Below are positions 781-10,107 of a stretch of DNA of 10,189 bases, piece after piece. The notes under the pieces are model-generated. The model did no database searches. It was not told the origin of the DNA and saw only the letters and a list, made by a program, of their open reading frames with translations. How positions within the stretch are numbered: position 1 is the first letter of the stretch; the number at the start of each line of letters is the position of its first letter. The DNA is taken from positions 1-10,189 of the forward strand of contig VBGE01000205.1 in NCBI GenBank assembly GCA_005880345.1, in the 5' to 3' direction. Both the position numbers and the translations under genes were made by a program. Origin of the DNA: Chloroflexota bacterium (GTDB lineage: Bacteria; Chloroflexota; Dormibacteria; Dormibacterales; Dormibacteraceae).

Positions 781-2014
781 CTAATGCTGGTAGACCTTGC
801 CGACCGCCGCGGCGAGCGTGTTCGCCTTCTGCAGGGCCGCGTCGACGGATTCCGTGCCGGCGATGACCTTGGCGAACTCCTGGGACACCTGGTCCCCTAG
901 CTGCTGGAACTCATCGACGTCAACGTACTGGACGCCGATGTATGGAACCGGGTCCACGGTGGGGTGGGTCACGTCGGCGTGCGCGATCGAGTCCAGCGTC
1001 ACCTGCGCGAACCCGCCGGCCGCCTGCTGGTATTCAGGCAGCGAGTAGGTCGAGGTGCGGGTTCCCGGCGGCACGTGCGACCAGCCGAGCTTGGTCCCGA
1101 CGAGCTTGATGTAATCCTTGGAGGTGGCCCAGTCCGCGAACGCCCAGGCTGCGTCCTTCTTCTTGCTGGTGGACGGCATGGCCAGCGACCACGCCCACAG
1201 CCAGCCCGACCAGTCCTTGACCTTGGTCGGCGCGTAGGCGTAAGCCGAGTTCTTGGCCGCGTCGCCGGTGAAGTTGCTCGCGCCGACGGTCGCGTCGTAC
1301 CACATGGCGACCTTGCTGCTGTTGTATGCGTTGAGGCAACCAGCGACCGCCGTACGTGTTGACGACCGTGTCGAGCGGAGCGAGCTGCTCGCCCCAACCG
1401 GGGAGCCCGCGCAGGCAGATCCCGCTTGTGTTCCCGCTCTTGACCTTGTTGGCGATGGTCGCCACCTGGTCCCAGGTCGGGTGGTCGGGCATGGTCAGAC
1501 CGGCCGCCTGCAGCATGTCCTTGCGGTACATGAGCATCGACGACTCGCCATAGAACGGCACCGCGTAGAGGTTGCCGGAGACGCTGAGCGCGGTCTTGAT
1601 GCCGGGGATCAGGTCATCCGGGGCATAGTTCGAGTCCTTGGCGATGTACGGGTTCAAGTTCTCGATCCACGGCGTCGGCGCCTTCTTGGCCCACAACGGA
1701 ACCTCGTAGGTGCCGATGGTGAACAGGTCGAACCGGCCGCTGTTGGCCGCCACGTCCTGCGTGACCTGCTGCCTCAGCTGGTCTTCAGGCAGAGTGACAA
1801 TGTTGACCTTGATATCCGAATGAGCGCTCGTGAAGTTGGAGAGGAGCGCCTTCAGGTCGGCCATCTGCGGGTTGTCGACCGCGGCCACTGTGATCGTGGT
1901 CGTGCCGCCGCCACCTCCGCCCGCGCCCGAACATGCGCCGCCGACCACTGCGACCAAGCCCAGGATCGCAGCCATGAACAACCTGCCCGGTGATCCGACT
2001 TTCCTGTCCCTCAT
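781..2014 (-). pseudogene. Polyol-type ABC substrate-binding lipoprotein (SmoE-like), disrupted by internal loss and frameshift
   Basis: Extracellular solute-binding protein, family 1, resembling sorbitol/mannitol-type (SmoE) proteins. Translation from ATG 2014 gives a basic N-terminus, a hydrophobic segment and a cysteine at residue 28 (VVGGAC) followed by a poly-Gly linker, typical of a lipoprotein although Gly at -3 is a weak lipobox. Family stretches follow in order: FTIGTYEVP, LYAVPFYGESS, ICLRGLPGWGEQ and NTYGGRW, reached near residue 225. Reading then jumps frame at about 1336-1340 to LNAYNSSKVAMWYDATV, LWAWSLAMPS, GWSHVPPGTRTSTY and DPVPYIGVQYV, about 184 residues to the TAG at 783-781. 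Relatives carry roughly 40 more residues between GGRW and the segment before MWYDATV, so this is a deletion out of frame, not a one-base slip. ATG 2014 is preferred over ATG 2029 because GAGGTGG (2027-2021) sits 6 nt upstream of it. It is either a true pseudogene or an assembly error. Confidence 0.88.
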
Positions 2015-2020
2015 GCAGAG

Positions 2021-2027
2021 CCACCTC
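2021..2027 (-). promoter_or_regulatory. Ribosome binding site that decides the start of binding protein 1
   Basis: GAGGTGG on the minus strand, 6 nt before ATG 2014. It overlaps the alternative upstream ATG at 2029, which therefore has no room for its own site, so 2014 is the better start. Confidence 0.7.
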
Positions 2028-2065
2028 ATCTTTCATCAGGCGATTTGCGCACGCCCAGCCAGTCG

Positions 2066-2095
2066 TGACAACGTTGTCAAAAGACAACGTTGTCT
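2066..2095. promoter_or_regulatory. Tandem perfect palindromic operators, probably for the LacI-family regulator
   Basis: Two copies of the 12-bp palindrome GACAACGTTGTC lie at 2067-2078 and 2083-2094. Each extends to a perfect 14-bp palindrome (TGACAACGTTGTCA at 2066-2079; AGACAACGTTGTCT at 2082-2095). The centres are 16 bp apart, so two dimers could bind side by side about one and a half helical turns apart. The central AACGTT is typical of LacI-family operators, and the sites sit in the gap between the binding-protein gene and the lacI-like gene, so one regulator could control both arms. The palindromes are seen directly; assignment to this LacI protein is inferred from position and class. 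Confidence 0.85.
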
Positions 2096-2103
2096 GATAT
2101 AAC
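2074..2103 (+). promoter_or_regulatory. Candidate promoter for the lacI-kinase arm
   Basis: TTGTCA (2074-2079) and TATAAC (2098-2103) are separated by 18 bp, each matching the sigma-70-type consensus at five of six positions. The -35 element lies inside operator 1, and the spacer contains operator 2, so repressor binding would block it. This would make the regulator autoregulated. Confidence 0.5.
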
Positions 2104-2124
2104 ACAATTCGGTTTAGACTGCAA
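2096..2124 (-). promoter_or_regulatory. Candidate promoter for the binding protein 1 / permease arm
   Basis: On the minus strand TTATAT (2102-2097) or the overlapping TATATC (2101-2096) could serve as -10, with a weak TTGCAG -35 at 2124-2119 (spacer 16-17). Transcription would start near 2089, inside operator 2 and just before operator 1, a normal place for repression. The -35 is poor, so this is tentative. Confidence 0.35.
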
Positions 2125-2148
2125 CGTCAGAGTTGGTCTCGGCCCTTT

Positions 2149-2182
2149 GGTGGAGTTCAGGCTGATGCCGATAGACATACGT
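2149..2182 (+). pseudogene. Orphaned translation start of the lacI-like gene
   Basis: GGTGGAG (2149-2155) lies 9 nt before ATG 2165, which opens M-P-I-D-I-R, a normal-looking first strand of a LacI HTH, then stops at TGA 2183-2185. The sensor core continues in a different frame. This looks like the true 5' end of the regulator gene, separated from its body by a small loss of sequence. Confidence 0.5.
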
Positions 2183-3117
2183 TGACATCCGCACGGAGGG
2201 GCACCTCCAGGGCGACCATGCGAGAGGCCGCGTCCGAGCGACTCGACTACCGGCACAACATGACCGCGAGCAGCCTCCGTCGCTCGGACGGACGCAGCGC
2301 CACCATCGGCGTCGTCCTCGAGGACGTGGCCAACCCCTTTTCGTCGGCACTGCATCGGGCGGTCGAGGACATCGCGGTCACGCGTGGCGTGCTCGTGCTC
2401 GCCGGCAGCTCCGATGAAGATGAGGAGCGCGAGCGGCGGCTCGTCTCGGCGTTCGCTTCCCGCCGGGTCGACGGACTGATCCTCCAGCCGTCGAGCCACG
2501 ACCAGAGCTACCTGCTCACGGAACGCAGGGCGGGGACCGTCATCGTCTTTGTCGACCGCCCACCCGCTTTCATCGATGCCGACGCGGTGCTGACCGACAA
2601 CGCGGCGGGTGTGAGGCGCGGGATCCGCCACCTTGTCGAGCGCGGACACCGGCGCATCGGATACCTCGGCGACCTCCACACCATCGCGACTGCGGCCGAA
2701 CGTCACCGCGGCTATGTAGAAGAGCTCGGCGCCCGCGGCATCCAGGTCGACGAGAAGCTGGTTCGCCTGGACGTGCGCGGCATCGAGCGAGCGGAGGCAG
2801 CGGTCGAGGAGATCCTCGGCCTCAGCCCGCCCCCCACCGCGTTCTTCACCGGCCAGAACCTGATCACGATTGGCGCGTTCCGCGCGCTTCGCCGCCGCGG
2901 CCTGCACAACCGCATCGCGCTGATCGGCTTCGACGACATCCTGCTGGCCGACCTGCTCGAGCCGGGTATCACCGTGATCGCGCAGGACCCCGCCGAGATC
3001 GGTCGGGTCGCCGCCGAAGTCCTGTTCCGCCGGCTCGACGGAGACCGCTCGCCGACGCAGCAGCACATCGTGCTGACCCGGATGATCACGCGCGGGTCCG
3101 GCGAGATCGTCCCGTGA
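2182..3117 (+). CDS. LacI-family transcriptional regulator with an intact sensor core but damaged DNA-binding domain
   Basis: Sugar-responsive repressor of the LacI/GalR family. The effector-binding core is complete: it starts near residue 40 from TTG 2182 (TIGVVLEDVANPFSSALH), continues through GSSDEDEERERRLVSAF, RRVDGLILQPSS and HLVERGHRRIGYLG, and ends with ALIGFDDILLADLLEPGIT and QDPAEIGRVAAEVL. The hinge (LDYRHNMTASSLRR) is present. The helix-turn-helix expected before it, about 45 residues, is not readable: only a fragment like RRGTSRAT precedes REAASERLDYRHN. A much better start, ATG 2165 behind GGTGGAG (2149-2155), reads M-P-I-D-I-R and then hits TGA at 2183 in another frame. The natural start was probably 2165, with part of the HTH lost between about 2183 and 2220. 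The TTG start given here is only the first in-frame option. As written, the protein could not bind the operators at 2066-2095. It overlaps the kinase start by 4 nt (GTGA). Confidence 0.85.
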   Translation: MTSARRGTSRATMREAASERLDYRHNMTASSLRRSDGRSATIGVVLEDVANPFSSALHRAVEDIAVTRGVLVLAGSSDEDEERERRLVSAFASRRVDGLILQPSSHDQSYLLTERRAGTVIVFVDRPPAFIDADAVLTDNAAGVRRGIRHLVERGHRRIGYLGDLHTIATAAERHRGYVEELGARGIQVDEKLVRLDVRGIERAEAAVEEILGLSPPPTAFFTGQNLITIGAFRALRRRGLHNRIALIGFDDILLADLLEPGITVIAQDPAEIGRVAAEVLFRRLDGDRSPTQQHIVLTRMITRGSGEIVP

Positions 3118-4040
3118 TCGTTGTCTGCGGCGAGGCCCTGATCGACATGATCCAGAACGGCGACGGCACGCAGCGGGCCACCCCGGGAGGAGGGCCGTTC
3201 AACACGGCACGGGCGCTGGCGCGGCTCGGCGTGCCGACCGCCTTCCTCGGGCGTCTGTCAGACGATCAGTTCGGCCGGGAGCTCGCCGAGCTCCTAGTCG
3301 CGGACGGCGTGAGCCTCGCCCTCGCCAGCGTAGGTCCCGAGAAGACGACGATCGCCCTGGCCGACGTCGACAGCGAAGGTTTCGCCGAGTACCAGTTCCT
3401 CGTCCAGGGCACCTCGGCCCCGAACCTCACTGCCGACTCGTTGCCCGACCACCTGGACCCCGCCGTCAACGCCATCCACCTCGGCACGCTCGGCCTCGTC
3501 CTCGAGCCGATGTCGGACACACTGATGGGCCTGGTCGACCGCGAGCGCGACGGCCGTCTGGTCATGGTCGACCCCAACATCCGGGTCGGGCTCGTGCCCG
3601 ACGCCGAGTACCGCGAGCGACTGGGCCATGTCATCTCGTGCAGCTCGATCGTCAAGGCGAGCGACTCAGACCTCGAATGGCTGTACCCCGACAGGCCATA
3701 TCAGGTGGCCGCCGAGGACCTGGTGGGCCAGGGCATCGCGCTTGCCATCGTCACGCTCGGGGCGCAGGGCGCATTCGCCGCGCATCACGACATCAGGGTC
3801 TCGGTCGAGGCGCCGCGGATCGATGTGGTGGACACGATCGGCGCCGGCGACGCTTTTGGCGCCGCGCTGCTGGCGTGGCTCCACGATCACCAGGCGATTC
3901 GGCCCGACGTCAGGCTCGATCGGGACGAGCTCGAGGCGGCTTTGCGCTACGCGTGCCTGGCCGCAGCCATCACCTGCTCGCGGGCGGGCGCCGACCCGCC
4001 GTGGAAGCGGGAGCTCGACGCCGCACTCGCGGCCGGCTGA
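3114..4040 (+). CDS. PfkB-family sugar kinase (probable fructokinase)
   Basis: ATP-dependent cytosolic carbohydrate kinase of the ribokinase/PfkB family, 308 residues, the usual length. The N-terminal signature GGGPFNTARALARLG (residues 25-39, Asn30) binds sugar. The C-terminal signature DTIGAGDAF (residues 240-248) supplies the anion hole and the catalytic base Asp246. VDPNIR and IVKASDSDLEWLYP are further family landmarks and match fructokinases best by eye. The GTG start at 3114 overlaps the LacI stop (GTGA), so the two are co-transcribed and probably translationally coupled. Beside a polyol-type importer the likely job is phosphorylating fructose or a similar ketose made by a dehydrogenase not present here; 2-keto-3-deoxygluconate or another sugar cannot be excluded. 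The gene shows no lesion. Its stop lies 3 bp from the convergent GH42 stop, leaving no intergenic terminator. Confidence 0.9.
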   Translation: MIVVCGEALIDMIQNGDGTQRATPGGGPFNTARALARLGVPTAFLGRLSDDQFGRELAELLVADGVSLALASVGPEKTTIALADVDSEGFAEYQFLVQGTSAPNLTADSLPDHLDPAVNAIHLGTLGLVLEPMSDTLMGLVDRERDGRLVMVDPNIRVGLVPDAEYRERLGHVISCSSIVKASDSDLEWLYPDRPYQVAAEDLVGQGIALAIVTLGAQGAFAAHHDIRVSVEAPRIDVVDTIGAGDAFGAALLAWLHDHQAIRPDVRLDRDELEAALRYACLAAAITCSRAGADPPWKRELDAALAAG

Positions 4041-4043
4041 CCG

Positions 4044-5945
4044 CTACCAGCCTTCTCGGATCACCGCCACGCCGCGCGGCGGCAGGTGCATCAGCCCGGG
4101 GTGAACCTGAGCGCCGTCGACCAGGTTCACCCCGGCCTCCTGGATCGGGACATCGACTCCGGCGTCGCGGTGGTTGAGCAGGAAGAGGAACGACTTGCGC
4201 GCCGCTCCTCGGCGCACCGCCTCGACCCCCGCCGGGACCTCGGCGACCGGCACGACCCCTGCACCGGCGACTGCGGCCTGCAGCAGGCGGGCCGTCGCGC
4301 TCGCATCGGGCTGCGTGCCGAGGTAGTAAGCCGTGCCGCGGCCGAAGGAATGGCTCGTGATCAAAGGGCGGCCAATCGAGGTGGCCAGCGCGCCGGCGCC
4401 GGCCAGATGGATCTCGTCCATCCAGATGGCGCCTCGTCCCTGCTTGCCGTCGGCGAAGTCGAGGCCCACCTCCTCCCCATCGGCCAGCGGGTGGAAATCG
4501 ACGACGTCGAGCCCGAGCATCTCGCGGAACGGGGCCGGATAGCCGCCCAGCCGGATGTGGTCGGAGGGGTCGACGATGCCGCTGAAGAACGACATGACGA
4601 GCGCGCCGCCGTTTTGCACAAAGCGGACCAGCCCCGCCGCGGCCTCGTCGGCGACCAGGTACAGGCTGGGCGCGACCACCAGCCGGTATTGCGAGAGGTC
4701 GTCGCCAGGGTGGGCGAAGTCCACAGCGACGTTGGCCTCGAACAGCGGCCGGTAGAGAGCTTCCACCTGCTCGATCTGGCGCACGCGGCTGGAGGGTTTG
4801 GACGGCAGCTCGAGCGCCCACCACGACTCCCAGTCGAAGAGGATCGCGACCGAGGCCGTACTTTGCGCGCCCGCCACCGGCTCGAGGTTGCCCAGCTCGC
4901 GACCGAGTCGCACGACGTCGTGCCACACGGTCGATTGCTCGACCGGTCCATGCGGAACCATCGCGCTGTGGAACTTCTCGGCCCCGGCGCGCGACTGCCG
5001 CCATTGAAAGAACATGACGCCGTCCGCGCCATGCGCCACAGCCTGGAAGCTCCACAGCCGCATCTGGCCCGGCGCCTTCGGCACGTTGACGTCGCGCCAG
5101 TTGACGCGGCTCGAAGTCTGCTCCATGAGGATCCACGGTCGGCCGTGACCGAGCGAGCGCATGAGGTCGCCCGCCATCGCCGCGCGCATGGCGGACGCCG
5201 GATCCGACGGGTCGGGATAGGAATCGAGGCTGACCAGGTCCTCGTGCGACGCCCACTTCCAGTAGTCGAGCGGCTTGAAACCGACCATGAAGTTGGTGGT
5301 GACGGGCACGTTCGGGGTGGCCTTCTTCAGGACCTCGTGCTCGGCGTCGTAGCACTCGAGCAGCGCGTCGGAGGAGAAACGGAGGAAGTCCAGCTGCTGG
5401 CTGGGATTGGGCCAGGTGGGCGTGCGCCGCGGCGGCACGATCTCGTCCCACGAGCCGTATCGCTGGGACCAGAAGTCGGTGCCCCAGGCTTCGTTCAGCT
5501 TCTCGATCGACCCGTAGCGCGCCTGCAGCCATTCGCGGAAGGCGGCGGCCGAGACGTCGCAGTAGCACGCAGGGACATGGCAGCCGTATTCGTTGCCGAC
5601 GTGCCACATGACGAGCGAGGGGTGCTTCGCGTAGTGGTCTGCCATCGCCTCGACCAGCCGCCGCGCCGCCGAGCGATAGATCGGGCTGCTGGGGCAGTAA
5701 TGCTGTCGTGCGCCGGGCCACAGCCGCACCCCGTCGGCCAGCACGGGCAGCATCTCGGGATGTTGGTGCGACAGCCAGGGTGGAGGTGACGCGGTGGCGG
5801 TGGCGAGGTCGACCTGGATGCCGCCTTCGTGCAGCAGGTCGAGGACGCGGTCGAGCCACGCGAAATCGAACCTGCCTTCTTCCGGCTCGAGGCGCGACCA
5901 CGAGAAGATGCCGACCGACACCAGGTTGACGCCCGCTTCCCGCAT
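4044..5945 (-). CDS. GH42 beta-galactosidase, conserved N-terminus encoded upstream of the first start codon
   Basis: Glycoside hydrolase family 42 retaining beta-galactosidase, probably cytosolic (no signal peptide), cleaving imported beta-galactosides. Numbered from ATG 5945: the TIM barrel begins at once (GVNLVSVGIFSWSRLEP), the acid/base is Glu119 (WHVGNEYG) and the nucleophile Glu275 (ILMEQTSSRVNW). Cys84 (HYCPSSP), Cys122, Cys127 and Cys129 (CHVPACYC) match the structural zinc site of the family. Trimerisation and beta-rich C-terminal domains follow to LPPRGVAVIREGW. Total length is 633 residues, or about 661 with 28 clearly homologous residues encoded upstream to 6029, including HIYYGGDYNPDQWPEEVW. 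That upstream stretch is open back to a TGA at 6053-6051 but contains no ATG, GTG or TTG, so the real start is missing, non-standard (for example ACG or ATC), or lost by deletion. It follows the MalG-type permease directly, with no gap. Confidence 0.93.
   Translation of the reverse strand: MREAGVNLVSVGIFSWSRLEPEEGRFDFAWLDRVLDLLHEGGIQVDLATATASPPPWLSHQHPEMLPVLADGVRLWPGARQHYCPSSPIYRSAARRLVEAMADHYAKHPSLVMWHVGNEYGCHVPACYCDVSAAAFREWLQARYGSIEKLNEAWGTDFWSQRYGSWDEIVPPRRTPTWPNPSQQLDFLRFSSDALLECYDAEHEVLKKATPNVPVTTNFMVGFKPLDYWKWASHEDLVSLDSYPDPSDPASAMRAAMAGDLMRSLGHGRPWILMEQTSSRVNWRDVNVPKAPGQMRLWSFQAVAHGADGVMFFQWRQSRAGAEKFHSAMVPHGPVEQSTVWHDVVRLGRELGNLEPVAGAQSTASVAILFDWESWWALELPSKPSSRVRQIEQVEALYRPLFEANVAVDFAHPGDDLSQYRLVVAPSLYLVADEAAAGLVRFVQNGGALVMSFFSGIVDPSDHIRLGGYPAPFREMLGLDVVDFHPLADGEEVGLDFADGKQGRGAIWMDEIHLAGAGALATSIGRPLITSHSFGRGTAYYLGTQPDASATARLLQAAVAGAGVVPVAEVPAGVEAVRRGAARKSFLFLLNHRDAGVDVPIQEAGVNLVDGAQVHPGLMHLPPRGVAVIREGW
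4096..4135. repeat. Perfect 14-bp inverted repeat (hairpin) inside the 3' end of the GH42 gene
   Basis: CCGGGGTGAACCTG (4096-4109) is matched exactly by CAGGTTCACCCCGG (4122-4135), with a 12-nt loop. It sits about 55 bp beyond the stop of the plus-strand kinase and about 50 bp before the GH42 stop. With only 3 bp between the convergent genes, it is a candidate transcription-stopping structure acting from within coding sequence, mainly on the kinase transcript. No T-run follows on either strand, so an intrinsic terminator of the usual kind is not shown. Confidence 0.6.
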
Positions 5946-6027
5946 GAGCCGGACGTCCTCGGGCCAGACCTCTTCGGGCCACTGGTCGGGGTTGTAGTCG
6001 CCGCCGTAGTAGATGTGCGGCGTCGAA

Positions 6028-6984
6028 TCAGCCTTTGGTCGAGCCGAGCGTCAGGCCGGCGATGAACTGCTTCTGCAGAAAGACGTAGACCAGAATGGGC
6101 GGAACCGCGGCCAGCAGCGCGCCCGCCGCGATGAGGTTGTTGTTGGAGAAGAACTCGCCCTGCAGGTTGTTCAAGGCGCTCGTGATCGGGCGCTTGTCCC
6201 CTGTCTTGAGCAGGATCAGGGCCCAGAAGAAGTCGTTGTAGATGAACGTGAACAGCAGCGTCGCCATCGCGGCCAGCGCAGGGCGGCACAGCGGCAGCAC
6301 GATGTTCCACCAGATCCGCAGCACGTGCGCGCCGTCGACGATCGCGGACTCTGTGATCTCCTTGGAGATCGTCTTCATGTAGTTGCTCAGAACGAACGTG
6401 GCGAAGCCGGTCTGGAAGACGACGTGAATGAGCATGATCCCGATGTACTGGTCGTACAGCAGGTTGTTGTCGCTGAAGATCGGGAAAGAGAAGCGGCCGA
6501 TGTCGATCGAGCTGAGCATCGGGATCGGAGTGCTGAGGTAGATGTGATAGAGCGGGACGATGATGACCTGCGGCGGCAGCAGGTTGCCCGCGGTGAAGAT
6601 CATCAGCACGGTCAGGTTGAACCGCCACGTGAACTGCGTGCACGCGAAAGCGACCATCGAGGACAGCAGCAGGATCAGGATCACCGACGGGACGACGATG
6701 ACCAGGGTGTTGGCGTAGAAGTACGGCAGGTCGGCCTCTGTCCAGAACGTTCGGAAGTTGTCCAGGCTGAGGCCGCCGGCAGGCAGCGAGACGTAACCAT
6801 TGGTCACCGTGTCGCTGATCGGGCGCAGAGACGAGTAAACCGCCCAGAACAGTGGGAACGCCCACAGCACAGTCATGGCGATGAGGAACGCATGGAGGAT
6901 CACGCGCCCCGGCCGGAATTGCCGCCCGATGACGACGGACTCTGAAGGCACCGTCCTCTGGGCGACCACAGTGCTTGCGCTCAT
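6028..6984 (-). CDS. MalG-type sugar ABC permease
   Basis: Second inner-membrane permease of the locus-B carbohydrate importer (CUT1, MalG type), about 318 residues and apparently intact. A 25-residue cytoplasmic lead precedes the first helix (VILHAFLIAMTVLWAFPLFWAVYSSL). Six membrane segments are recognisable. The EAA loop reads EITESAIVDGAHVLRIWWNIVLPL, and the usual MalG ending FIAGLTLGSTKG precedes the TGA at 6030-6028. The ATG at 6984 overlaps the TGA of the upstream permease (ATGA), indicating translational coupling. The insertion between helices 3 and 4 (PIPMLSSIDIGRFSFPIFSDNNLLYD) is longer than in typical MalG proteins. The GH42 frame begins immediately after its stop. Confidence 0.93.
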   Translation of the reverse strand: MSASTVVAQRTVPSESVVIGRQFRPGRVILHAFLIAMTVLWAFPLFWAVYSSLRPISDTVTNGYVSLPAGGLSLDNFRTFWTEADLPYFYANTLVIVVPSVILILLLSSMVAFACTQFTWRFNLTVLMIFTAGNLLPPQVIIVPLYHIYLSTPIPMLSSIDIGRFSFPIFSDNNLLYDQYIGIMLIHVVFQTGFATFVLSNYMKTISKEITESAIVDGAHVLRIWWNIVLPLCRPALAAMATLLFTFIYNDFFWALILLKTGDKRPITSALNNLQGEFFSNNNLIAAGALLAAVPPILVYVFLQKQFIAGLTLGSTKG

Positions 6985-7857
6985 CTCGCCGGCCTCATCG
7001 CCTGAGACAGGAAGGCGACGATCGGACCTAGCGAGATGACGAGCAGGATCACCGCAATCGCGGAGCCGAAGCCCACTCGCGTCGACTCGCTGATGCTGTT
7101 GTTGGTGATCAGGATGGAGAGGAGCTCGAGCCCGTTCTTGCCCTGGTTGATGATGAAGGCGAGGTCGAACGCGCGCAGCGACTCGATGGCGGTCAGCACC
7201 ACGATGACCGTGTTGATCGGGGCCATCACCGGGAAGACGACGCGGAAGAAGGTCCGTATCTCGTTGGCGCCGTCCACCTTGGCCGCCTCGCGCAGGGTCG
7301 GGTCGACGCTCTTGAGGCCCGCGAGGTAGATGACCATCATGTAGCCGACGTGCCGCCATGATGAATCCTTCGGTCGGGCTGAACTGCAGCTCCCAGATGA
7401 AGCCGACGACGACGAGCGAGAGGACCACCGGCAAGTAGAAGACGCTCTGATAGATGCGCGTGCCCCTGATGTCGCGGTCCAGGAGCACCGCGAAGAAGAT
7501 GCCGATGGGCGTGGCGATGAACGTCAGCCAGGCGAGCCAGATGAAGTTGTGGCCGAAGGCTCCCCAGAACTGGAAATACCCTCCACTCAGGAGGAATCGA
7601 TAGTTGCTGAGGCCGACGAAGTTGCCGGCGGTGATGTCGCCGATGCCGTCCCAGTTCGTGAAGGAGTAGTAGATCGAGGTCAGCGTGGGCCACCAGATGA
7701 ACACCACGTCCAGCAGCAGAGGAATGCCGACCATCGCAATCAGGAGGCGCCGGTCATAGCGCGTGAGGACGTGGTAGCGACCACTTTTTGTGGCAACGAG
7801 CTCCCCCGCCTCGGGTGTGTCCGCCGTGGCGGGGGAAATGCTCGTCGTTCGCGCCAC
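6981..7857 (-). pseudogene. MalF-type sugar ABC permease, disrupted by internal loss and frameshift
   Basis: First permease of the locus-B importer. From GTG 7857, 166 residues read cleanly: a polar N-terminus, the first helix (LLIAMVGIPLLLDVVFIWWP), SIYYSFTNWDG, more helices, and FIWELQFSPTEGFI. At 7359/7358 the sense moves to another frame and resumes with WRHVGYMMVIYLAGL, the EAA loop (TLREAAKVDGANEIRTFFRVVFPV) and the C-terminal helices to AMRPAR, about 125 residues. Relatives have roughly 30-40 residues between the SPxxG(F/L)I segment and W-R-H-V-G-Y, so the lesion is a loss of roughly 100 bp out of frame. As written, the EAA loop is not translated and the importer would fail. The gap to the upstream binding-protein stop is 23 bp without a clear ribosome site. 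The downstream ATGA junction with the MalG gene is intact. Confidence 0.88.
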
Positions 7858-7880
7858 TGTCTAGATCATATGTCGCGTCG

Positions 7881-9251
7881 TCACTCGGGCCCGAGCGAGT
7901 CCCAGAACTTCTGCATGTCGGACTGGAGGCTCGTCGTGTCCGAGGTCGGGTTGGCCAGGTAACGCAGCAGGAACTGCTGCATGCCGTTCGGGCCGGCGAA
8001 GTCCGGTCGCGAGTCGCGGTCGAAGAACTGCGTGATCTTCTTGGCCTTGCTCACGATGTCGGCCGCCTTCTTGGTGAGCGGGTCGTACTTGGTCTGGTCG
8101 GCATCGTTCGCGGTCGGGATGGCGCCCGGCGACTCGACGAAGAACTGGGTCTGCGTCGATCCCTTCGACAGGTACTCCATGAAGGCTTTCGCCTGGCCGA
8201 GGTCGTTGCTCAGGGTCGGTGACTTCTTGGTGACCATGAACACGTCGATCGGAGCGTCGAGGGCTTCCTCGGCGTCGTACTGCGAGCCGACGTGCGGGAA
8301 CGGGAAGAAGTCGAGCTGCGCCAGGTCCGCCTGGCTGCCCGAGGCGAGAAATTCCTGGGAGACGAACAGGCCGAGCAGGTACATGCCCGCCTGCTTGCGC
8401 AGCAGCTGGTCCGCGGCCTGCTGCCAGGTCAGGCCGGCGAAGGCCGGCGAGTAGAACGGCGTGATCTCGGCCCACTTCTTGAAGACCGCGGTCACCTTCG
8501 GGTCGCTCCACTTCTGCTGCCCGGTGCACAGGCCGACGTGGAAGTCGTAGCCGTTCATCCGCAGGTTGAGGATGTCGAACGTGCCCATCGCGGGCCAGCC
8601 GTCCTTGTCCGCGAACGCGATCGGGGTGAGGCCGTCGCTCTTCATCTTGGTGCAGAGGGCTTTGAATTCGTCCCAGTTGGTCGGGATCGTGTAGTTGTGC
8701 GCGGCAAAGACGTCCTTGCGATAGAAGACCGCCCACGGGTAGTAAGACGTCGGAATCGCGTACACATGGCCGTCGTCGCCCTTGACCGAGTTCGCGAATC
8801 CTTCGGTGTAGTTGCCCTTCACGGCGTTCCACACGTCGTCGATGGGCGAGGCCAGGCCCTTGGAGGCGAAAAAGCGCATGCGGTGTCCGGAGAACCAGGT
8901 GAAGACGTCCTCGGGCGTGCCCTGCAGGTACGAGGTGATCTGGTTCTGGAAGGTGCCGTGGTCGACCGTGTTGATGTTCACCTTGGTGCCGCCGTTGGCG
9001 CTGGTGAACGAGGTGACCAGGTCGGCCAGGGCCTTCTTGGGCACGGAGTCGGACTGGTAGCTGCCCAGCGACATTGTGCCGCCCTTGGCGGTGACTGAGG
9101 TGCTGGTCCCGGGGGTCGAGCCGCCGCACGCCGCGATGAAGGCGGCGAGACTGCCATAGCCCGCGATCTTGAGGATGTCGCGCCGCGACAGGTCGAGGTC
9201 TAGGGGCAGCTTCAGGTTCGTGCCGGGAACCACGATCTTGTCATCAGGCAT
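7881..9251 (-). CDS. Carbohydrate ABC substrate-binding lipoprotein with a Tat-type signal
   Basis: Solute-binding protein, family 1, 456 residues, first gene of locus B. The export signal has a twin-arginine motif (SRRDILK, Arg23-Arg24), a hydrophobic segment and a lipobox ending at Cys42 (FIAAC), so it should be exported folded by Tat and lipid-anchored outside the membrane. The mature part starts with a Ser/Thr-rich linker. Recognisable pieces are GTPEDVFTWFSGHRMRFFASKGL, YAIPTSYYPWAVFYRKDVF, IPTNWDEFKALC and a C-terminal helical part with FFVESPGAIPTA. Length is normal and no break is seen. ATG 9251 has a strong ribosome site (AGGAGGAG) 5-6 nt upstream. The gene heads a cluster with two permeases and a GH42 enzyme, which points to a galactose-containing oligosaccharide ligand; that is inference. 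Confidence 0.93.
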   Translation of the reverse strand: MPDDKIVVPGTNLKLPLDLDLSRRDILKIAGYGSLAAFIAACGGSTPGTSTSVTAKGGTMSLGSYQSDSVPKKALADLVTSFTSANGGTKVNINTVDHGTFQNQITSYLQGTPEDVFTWFSGHRMRFFASKGLASPIDDVWNAVKGNYTEGFANSVKGDDGHVYAIPTSYYPWAVFYRKDVFAAHNYTIPTNWDEFKALCTKMKSDGLTPIAFADKDGWPAMGTFDILNLRMNGYDFHVGLCTGQQKWSDPKVTAVFKKWAEITPFYSPAFAGLTWQQAADQLLRKQAGMYLLGLFVSQEFLASGSQADLAQLDFFPFPHVGSQYDAEEALDAPIDVFMVTKKSPTLSNDLGQAKAFMEYLSKGSTQTQFFVESPGAIPTANDADQTKYDPLTKKAADIVSKAKKITQFFDRDSRPDFAGPNGMQQFLLRYLANPTSDTTSLQSDMQKFWDSLGPE

Positions 9252-9255
9252 GCGA

Positions 9256-9264
9256 CTCCTCCTC
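9256..9264 (-). promoter_or_regulatory. Ribosome binding site of binding protein 2
   Basis: GAGGAGGAG on the minus strand, ending 4 nt before ATG 9251. It is the strongest such site in the window, fitting the first and most abundant product of the cluster. Confidence 0.75.
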
Positions 9265-9321
9265 TATTCCGGCCCTTTACGGCCTCGCCCAAAGGCGGTT
9301 GATGCCGTGGGATACAGGCGA

Positions 9322-9349
9322 AGAGTACAGATTCGGTCAATTTTGTCAA
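9322..9349 (-). promoter_or_regulatory. Promoter of the locus-B importer/GH42 cluster
   Basis: Minus strand: a perfect TTGACA (9349-9344), 16 bp spacer, TACTCT (9327-9322), giving a leader of about 65 nt before ATG 9251. The -35 belongs to a direct repeat, TTGAC-AAAA-TTGAC (9349-9336), that could be bound by a regulator. No transcript data are available. Confidence 0.55.
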
Positions 9350-9362
9350 CAGCGACCTTCGG

Positions 9363-9381
9363 TCTTGATCGTTCTTGATCG
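9363..9381. repeat. 9-bp direct repeat in the deoR promoter, candidate operator
   Basis: TCTTGATCG occurs twice, at 9363-9371 and 9373-9381, with a 10-bp period, so both copies face the same side of the helix. The first covers the proposed deoR -35 and the second lies in the spacer. Direct repeats at one helical turn are a plausible DeoR-family binding site. Confidence 0.45.
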
Positions 9382-9393
9382 ATGCCGTACGAT
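9365..9393 (+). promoter_or_regulatory. Candidate leaderless promoter of the deoR-like gene
   Basis: TTGATC (9365-9370), a 17-bp spacer and TACGAT (9388-9393) lie 7 bp before GTG 9401. The expected transcription start coincides with the start codon, and no Shine-Dalgarno is visible. Leaderless mRNAs are common in actinobacteria. Confidence 0.5.
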
Positions 9394-9400
9394 CGCACGC

Positions 9401-10107
9401 GTGCTAGCCGTGGAGCGAAAGCGGCTGATCGCGGAAAACCTCCGCCAGCGCGGCGTCATCTCCGTCGCCGAGATGGCCGAGGTTCTGGGCACCACCGAGA
9501 TCACGGTGCGCCGCGATATGCGCGCCATGGCCAGGGACGGCCTGCTGGTGCGTGCCCATGGCGGCGCCGTCTTGCCGGCCGCGATCGGGCACGAGCCGAG
9601 CTACTCGGAAAAGGCGCACCAGGCGGGCGCCGAGAAGGCTTCCATCGCCCGGCTGGCGGTCAAGCTGATCCTGCCCGGCGACTCGATCCTGCTCGGGCCG
9701 GGCACGACGACTCTGGCCCTAGCGCGGCTGCTGACGGAAATCCCAGAGCTCACCGTCGTCACCAACTCGCTGCTGGTGGCGCAGGCCTTGATGGCGGCGC
9801 CGCGCGTCGAGGTGATCCTGACCGGCGGCACCCTGCGCCGGTCCATCCACGCCCTGGTGGGACCGGCCGCCGAGGATTCGGTGCGCTCTCTGCGCGCGTC
9901 CAAGGCGTTCATCTCCGGCAACGGCTTCACGGCGGAGCGCGGACGGACACGATGTGCCAGACGGTGGCCGCGGGGCGCGTGCACACCCTGATCACCGACA
10001 GCGGCGCCGACCCCGTTGTGATTGCCTCGATTCGCGAGGCCGGCGTCGACGTGCGGGTCGCCGAGCCCAGGGGGGAACGTGAGCACCTCGCCTCCGCGTC
10101 GGCGTGA
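9401..10107 (+). pseudogene. DeoR-family transcriptional regulator, disrupted by internal loss and frameshift
   Basis: Repressor of the DeoR/GlpR family. From GTG 9401 the winged HTH is intact at residues 5-55 (ERKRLIAENLRQRGVISVAEMAEVLGTTEITVRRDM, then RAHGGAV). The phosphosugar-sensing domain follows with GPGTTT, VVTNSLLVA, LTGGTLRRSIHALVGP and AFISGNGFTAERG, to residue 181. At 9943-9946 the frame changes and the protein resumes with DTMCQTV, HTLITDSGADP and REAGVDVRVAEP to the TGA at 10105-10107. Family members have about 30 residues between the T-x-E-R-G segment and D-T-M-C-Q-T, including the strand ending in ADHTK, so the lesion is a deletion of roughly 100 bp out of frame. The junction reads GGACGGAC, a 4-bp tandem repeat. 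It diverges from the locus-B cluster across 149 bp and would be its natural regulator. The next gene overlaps its 3' end. Confidence 0.88.

Follow-up and report, generated by a model that had tools for sequence, protein, structure and literature searches.

Short blocks of coding sequence missing from a Dormibacterota MAG contig: a probable assembly artefact

Why would several genes within one short stretch of a bacterial genome each lack a block of similar length, with clean family sequence on either side? The stretch in question (the window) is the entire contig C70, 10,189 bp long, of the MAG G000, a fragmentary genome of 1.95 Mb that is split into 411 contigs and has a completeness of 63.1%. 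Its closest relatives in named collections are soil MAGs with the titles Chloroflexi or Dormibacteraeota bacterium. The contig carries genes for permease 1, SBP1, lacI, PfkB kinase, GH42, permease 3, permease 2, SBP2, and deoR. An earlier note on this DNA named five places where residues appeared to be absent (SBP1, lacI, the GH42 start, permease 2, and deoR) and offered two explanations, namely an assembly that drops short segments systematically or a recent process that removes pieces of 60–130 bp.

Alignment to relatives, a check which that note had proposed, gave exact missing lengths of 119, 93, 92, and 97 nt for SBP1, lacI, permease 2, and deoR, respectively (Table 1). At the SBP1 junction, 130 nt are kept in all 30 listed relative loci (those passing a 50% identity filter, with several genomes counted more than once) versus 11 nt in the window, and the loss again measured 119 nt in two wider alignments of relatives' queries. 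Permease 2 lacks 92 nt relative to three of four relative loci, the fourth (L042) giving 95; the same 92 nt are missing in comparison with 7/7 aligned relatives from among 24 candidates, and 92 is also the median of 14 queries. The deoR segment is kept in 13/13 listed relative loci. For lacI, 31 residues that include the HTH are absent in frame, and a domain search of the window gene matched Peripla_BP_3 and returned no match to the LacI HTH domain. Of 24 relative rows, 22 contain the HTH segment, the two exceptions being L138, in which the row starts inside the gene, and L119 (G008:C45), where no homologous HTH region lies upstream in frame. The latter is possibly another broken join.

Table 1. 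Positions of the affected genes, their junctions, and the GH42 gene in the window
Feature	Position	Strand	Shared bases at junction	Basis and remarks
SBP1 (extracellular solute-binding protein)	784..2029	-		SBP_bac_1 on both pieces; 119 nt lost
SBP1 junction	1338..1339		~1	DNA alignment with relatives
lacI-type regulator without HTH	2182..3117	+		Peripla_BP_3 match; 93 nt lost in frame
lacI junction	2226..2229			Placed by protein comparison
GH42 beta-galactosidase	4044..5945	-		Unbroken; frame open upstream of first ATG
Permease 2 (ABC sugar permease)	6981..7857	-		BPD_transp_1 on C piece; 92 nt lost
Permease 2 junction	7358..7359		0	DNA alignment with relatives
deoR-type regulator	9401..10107	+		HTH_DeoR and DeoRC; 97 nt lost
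deoR junction	~9944..9945		0–2	DNA alignment with relatives

Four of the five places are therefore without a block that relatives keep, while the GH42 start is normal. The missing lengths predicted from reading phase for SBP1, permease 2, and deoR (2, 2, and 1, mod 3) agree with those measured. The lacI loss, which had been regarded as a smaller version of the others, is full-size and merely in frame. A natural lack of the segments in relatives fits the GH42 start only, and none of the four broken genes is brought back to full length by a single-base indel, because 31–40 residues present in relatives are absent from them.

The GH42 start was rejected as a fifth loss, small or otherwise: the short arrangement that follows the permease 3 stop also occurs in the relative loci L036, L037, L047, and L109, and the reading frame in the window is open through the conserved N-terminus. 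A peculiarity of this gene is that no ATG, GTG, or TTG occurs within 40 codons upstream of the conserved GGDYNP motif at 13 of 74 motif-bearing places, all 13 belonging to one Dormibacterota group (the window at 5945–6030 on the minus strand, L036, L038, L041, L042, L045, L046, L047, L051, L052, L053, L056, and L109). Near-cognate starts such as ACG and CTG are candidates; they could be real, or the start could lie elsewhere.

Losses of similar size also occur elsewhere in the MAG. A frame-plot HMM served solely to choose candidates, because many of its calls in G000 proved on reading to be ordinary gene boundaries and it missed the deoR loss. It made 22 calls in 231 kb of G000 (33 contigs, with the window left out) versus 26 in 394 kb from 24 control loci, with 13 of the 26 control calls falling at the permease 3/GH42 boundary; of its three window calls, one falls there too. 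Three of its candidates were measured. DnaK lacks 82 nt relative to 13/13 loci of genus relatives that match both flanks (14 given), TrpB lacks 91 nt relative to 13/13 genus-relative loci, and GalK lacks 86 nt relative to 13/14 matching loci (15 given), with L244 giving 31. Other candidates were E1-beta-like, CtaA-like, and histidine-kinase-like genes, the names being our own reading. The MAG holds two DnaK pieces (G000:C9:4772-5596 and G000:C307:3947-4711), of which the second is 90% identical to the first and may be a paralogue or else part of a second genome that was binned with this one.

Proteins from two large contigs of G013, aligned to 61.3 kb of G000, revealed six losses and no gains of at least 60 nt. 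A wider query set covered 134.8 kb of alignment on 52 readable contigs and yielded 15 loss places versus one gain (at least 60 nt); because some of its queries derived from genes that had already been recognized as broken, these counts give no fair estimate of the rate. Two of the 15 look spurious, namely L161:1882 (139 nt), backed by a single weak query, and L170:4559, where 84 and -83 nt occur together. Five of the 15 keep the reading frame, and those other than lacI rest on one relative apiece; among them, losses of 102 nt (in a gene that we named primase-like), 105 nt, and 126–140 nt (126 or 140 at L196), each aligned to a single relative, may be partly natural. An in-frame loss of 84 nt at L175 (56% identity) appeared in the first alignment and is absent from the wider query-set result. 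Ten losses change the frame, of which three lie in the window and seven outside it; they measure 119, 92, 97, 82, 91, 86, 80, 125, 92, and 65 nt (mean 92.9, SD 17.8, median 91.5 nt), where the value for L288 is 125 or 98 (DNA alignment gives 98, with a poor right flank) and that for L295 is 65 or 68 (DNA alignment gives 68). With four losses in 10 kb, the density in the window is higher than the MAG average seen here.

Control loci provide a yardstick for these numbers. Across 25 of them, with ~256 kb aligned, three losses of at least 60 nt were backed by at least three queries: one of 81 nt, in frame, in L048, and two of 83 and 78 nt, both in L057. The same test found two losses in the 7.8 kb of window sequence that aligned, SBP1 and lacI lying beyond the reach of its queries. 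Judged by the control loci, the window losses exceed chance. The wider query-set run included small control pairs, with alignments of 6.1 and 6.0 kb, which contained one difference, of 19 nt.

L057 belongs to another MAG and shows losses of the same kind within ~1.3 kb (L057:1600-2900). In comparison with seven relatives, 78 nt are missing in 7/7 and 83–84 nt in 6/7, and possibly a further 63–68 nt are missing at the permease 2/3 boundary, as seen against four of the seven. The locus is VBHN01000136.1, from isolate CF_105 14_0929_12_20cm, and its match values are identical to those of G021:C198, so that the two are very probably one contig. Sample names of this pattern occur in PMC6784897, which describes assembly with IDBA-UD and later correction of scaffolding errors. 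L057 may come from that study, with which no evidence links G000.

What do the joins themselves look like? Five could be resolved (SBP1, permease 2, deoR, DnaK, and TrpB; lacI and GalK are excluded), and each has 0–2 shared bases when judged against relatives rather than against the strain's own intact DNA. The direct repeats or microhomology expected of repeat recombination were not found at these five joins. Drop-out of GC-extreme or hairpin-forming segments is likewise unsupported, with all six lost segments tested having GC and folding energies like those of their flanks. Among the first 40 G000 contigs, the 34 that were readable contain no Ns; of the next 20, 18 were readable, and their screen covered 100 Ns or more. 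N-marked scaffold gaps in related MAG loci resemble the window gaps in being short unassembled stretches from the same lineage, but they carry Ns (2 to 298 nt), whereas the window gaps carry no mark. A literature search on the removal of Ns found no paper.

A collection of 5.8 billion proteins was searched with permease 2, lacI, and SBP1. Protein P0241 is identical to permease 2 in both flanks (166/166 and 124/124) and has, between them, 32 residues that are absent in the window; P0242–P0253 match the same flanks at 161–166 of 166 and 122–124 of 124 residues. P0001 is identical to the window LacI at 292/295 residues and possesses the HTH (PF00356). P0121, a less close member of the SBP1 family, agrees with the flanks at 226/230 and 172/185 residues, and 40 residues separate the two. 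Intact copies so nearly identical to the broken genes are the decisive evidence for an artefact. They stem from other assemblies and from a sample other than the window's own, a point that counts against this reading.

In all likelihood, the window losses are an assembly artefact in which pieces were set end to end over short unassembled gaps and no Ns were inserted. Neighboring assembled pieces would have been placed against each other across each gap, the gap would not have been written as Ns, and each join would drop roughly 65–125 nt of real sequence. Such joins may have arisen in assembly, in scaffolding, or in later gap handling. Their common size could reflect a length scale of the library or assembler, for example the stretch between two paired reads that goes unsequenced, most simply the insert size less twice the read length. 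Nearly blunt joins, ordinary lost segments, and the lack of Ns together fit contig ends joined across an unmarked gap. Losses also outnumber gains, and genes are hit regardless of function (DnaK, TrpB, GalK, and others). Against this explanation stand the narrow size range, which some forms of gap loss would not predict (the N gaps in other loci of the lineage span 2 to 298 nt), and the above-average density of losses in the window.

A narrower form of artefact is possible, though doubtful: before assembly, the two reads of a pair may have been joined although they did not truly overlap, or may have been merged falsely, so that joined reads lacking the ~90-nt middle of the insert were inherited by the assembly where depth was low. 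The narrow spread of the ten losses, the nearly blunt joins, and the ordinary GC and folding of the lost segments all speak for it, but false merging on a spurious overlap should leave more than 0–2 shared bases.

Biological explanations fare far worse than end-to-end joining of assembled pieces. It is very improbable that a sugar-utilization cluster no longer used by the strain is undergoing ordinary pseudogene decay. The four broken genes do lie in neighboring sugar clusters, but signs of decay are absent: as the earlier note had held, the flanks are clean and look fully constrained, permease 2 being identical to intact P0241 at 290/290 flanking residues and lacI to its intact counterpart at 292/295. 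Losses moreover reach beyond the sugar clusters, and those in DnaK and TrpB contradict decay of an unused pathway. It is scarcely credible that the sampled strain truly carries deletions made by a size-measuring process, at work in a soil Dormibacterota population, that cuts out ~90 bp and rejoins blunt ends. Such a process agrees with the similar sizes, nearly blunt joins, and great excess of losses over gains, but it would break DnaK and TrpB along with the sugar genes, the flanks are undecayed, and near-identical intact genes exist elsewhere. Between the two explanations first offered, systematic dropping of short segments by the assembly is borne out by similar-size losses in unrelated genes of the MAG and by intact near-identical proteins in other assemblies; a recent process that removes 60–130 bp in the cell is not supported.

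The closest described parallel to joining across unmarked gaps is the local assembly errors of MAGs (Chen et al. 2020, PMC7111523), to which IDBA-UD is suspected there of being especially prone. In both cases, the consensus is wrong where pieces meet within genes, which leads to incomplete or incorrect protein-coding genes. Local assembly errors are defined in PMC7111523 by a lack of read support, whereas the window losses were identified by sequence comparison, and the accessible text of that paper does not mention a narrow size of ~90 nt.

The pattern is real in the letters, and its cause is almost certainly technical. This matters because the MAG represents its species in a public reference collection, where shortened proteins can pass as pseudogenes or gene absences. 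The artefact can also mimic domain loss, as exemplified by a LacI-type regulator without its HTH. Its signature, consisting of nearly blunt joins, a single size class, losses far in excess of gains, and all kinds of genes affected, would offer a simple screen for such assemblies.
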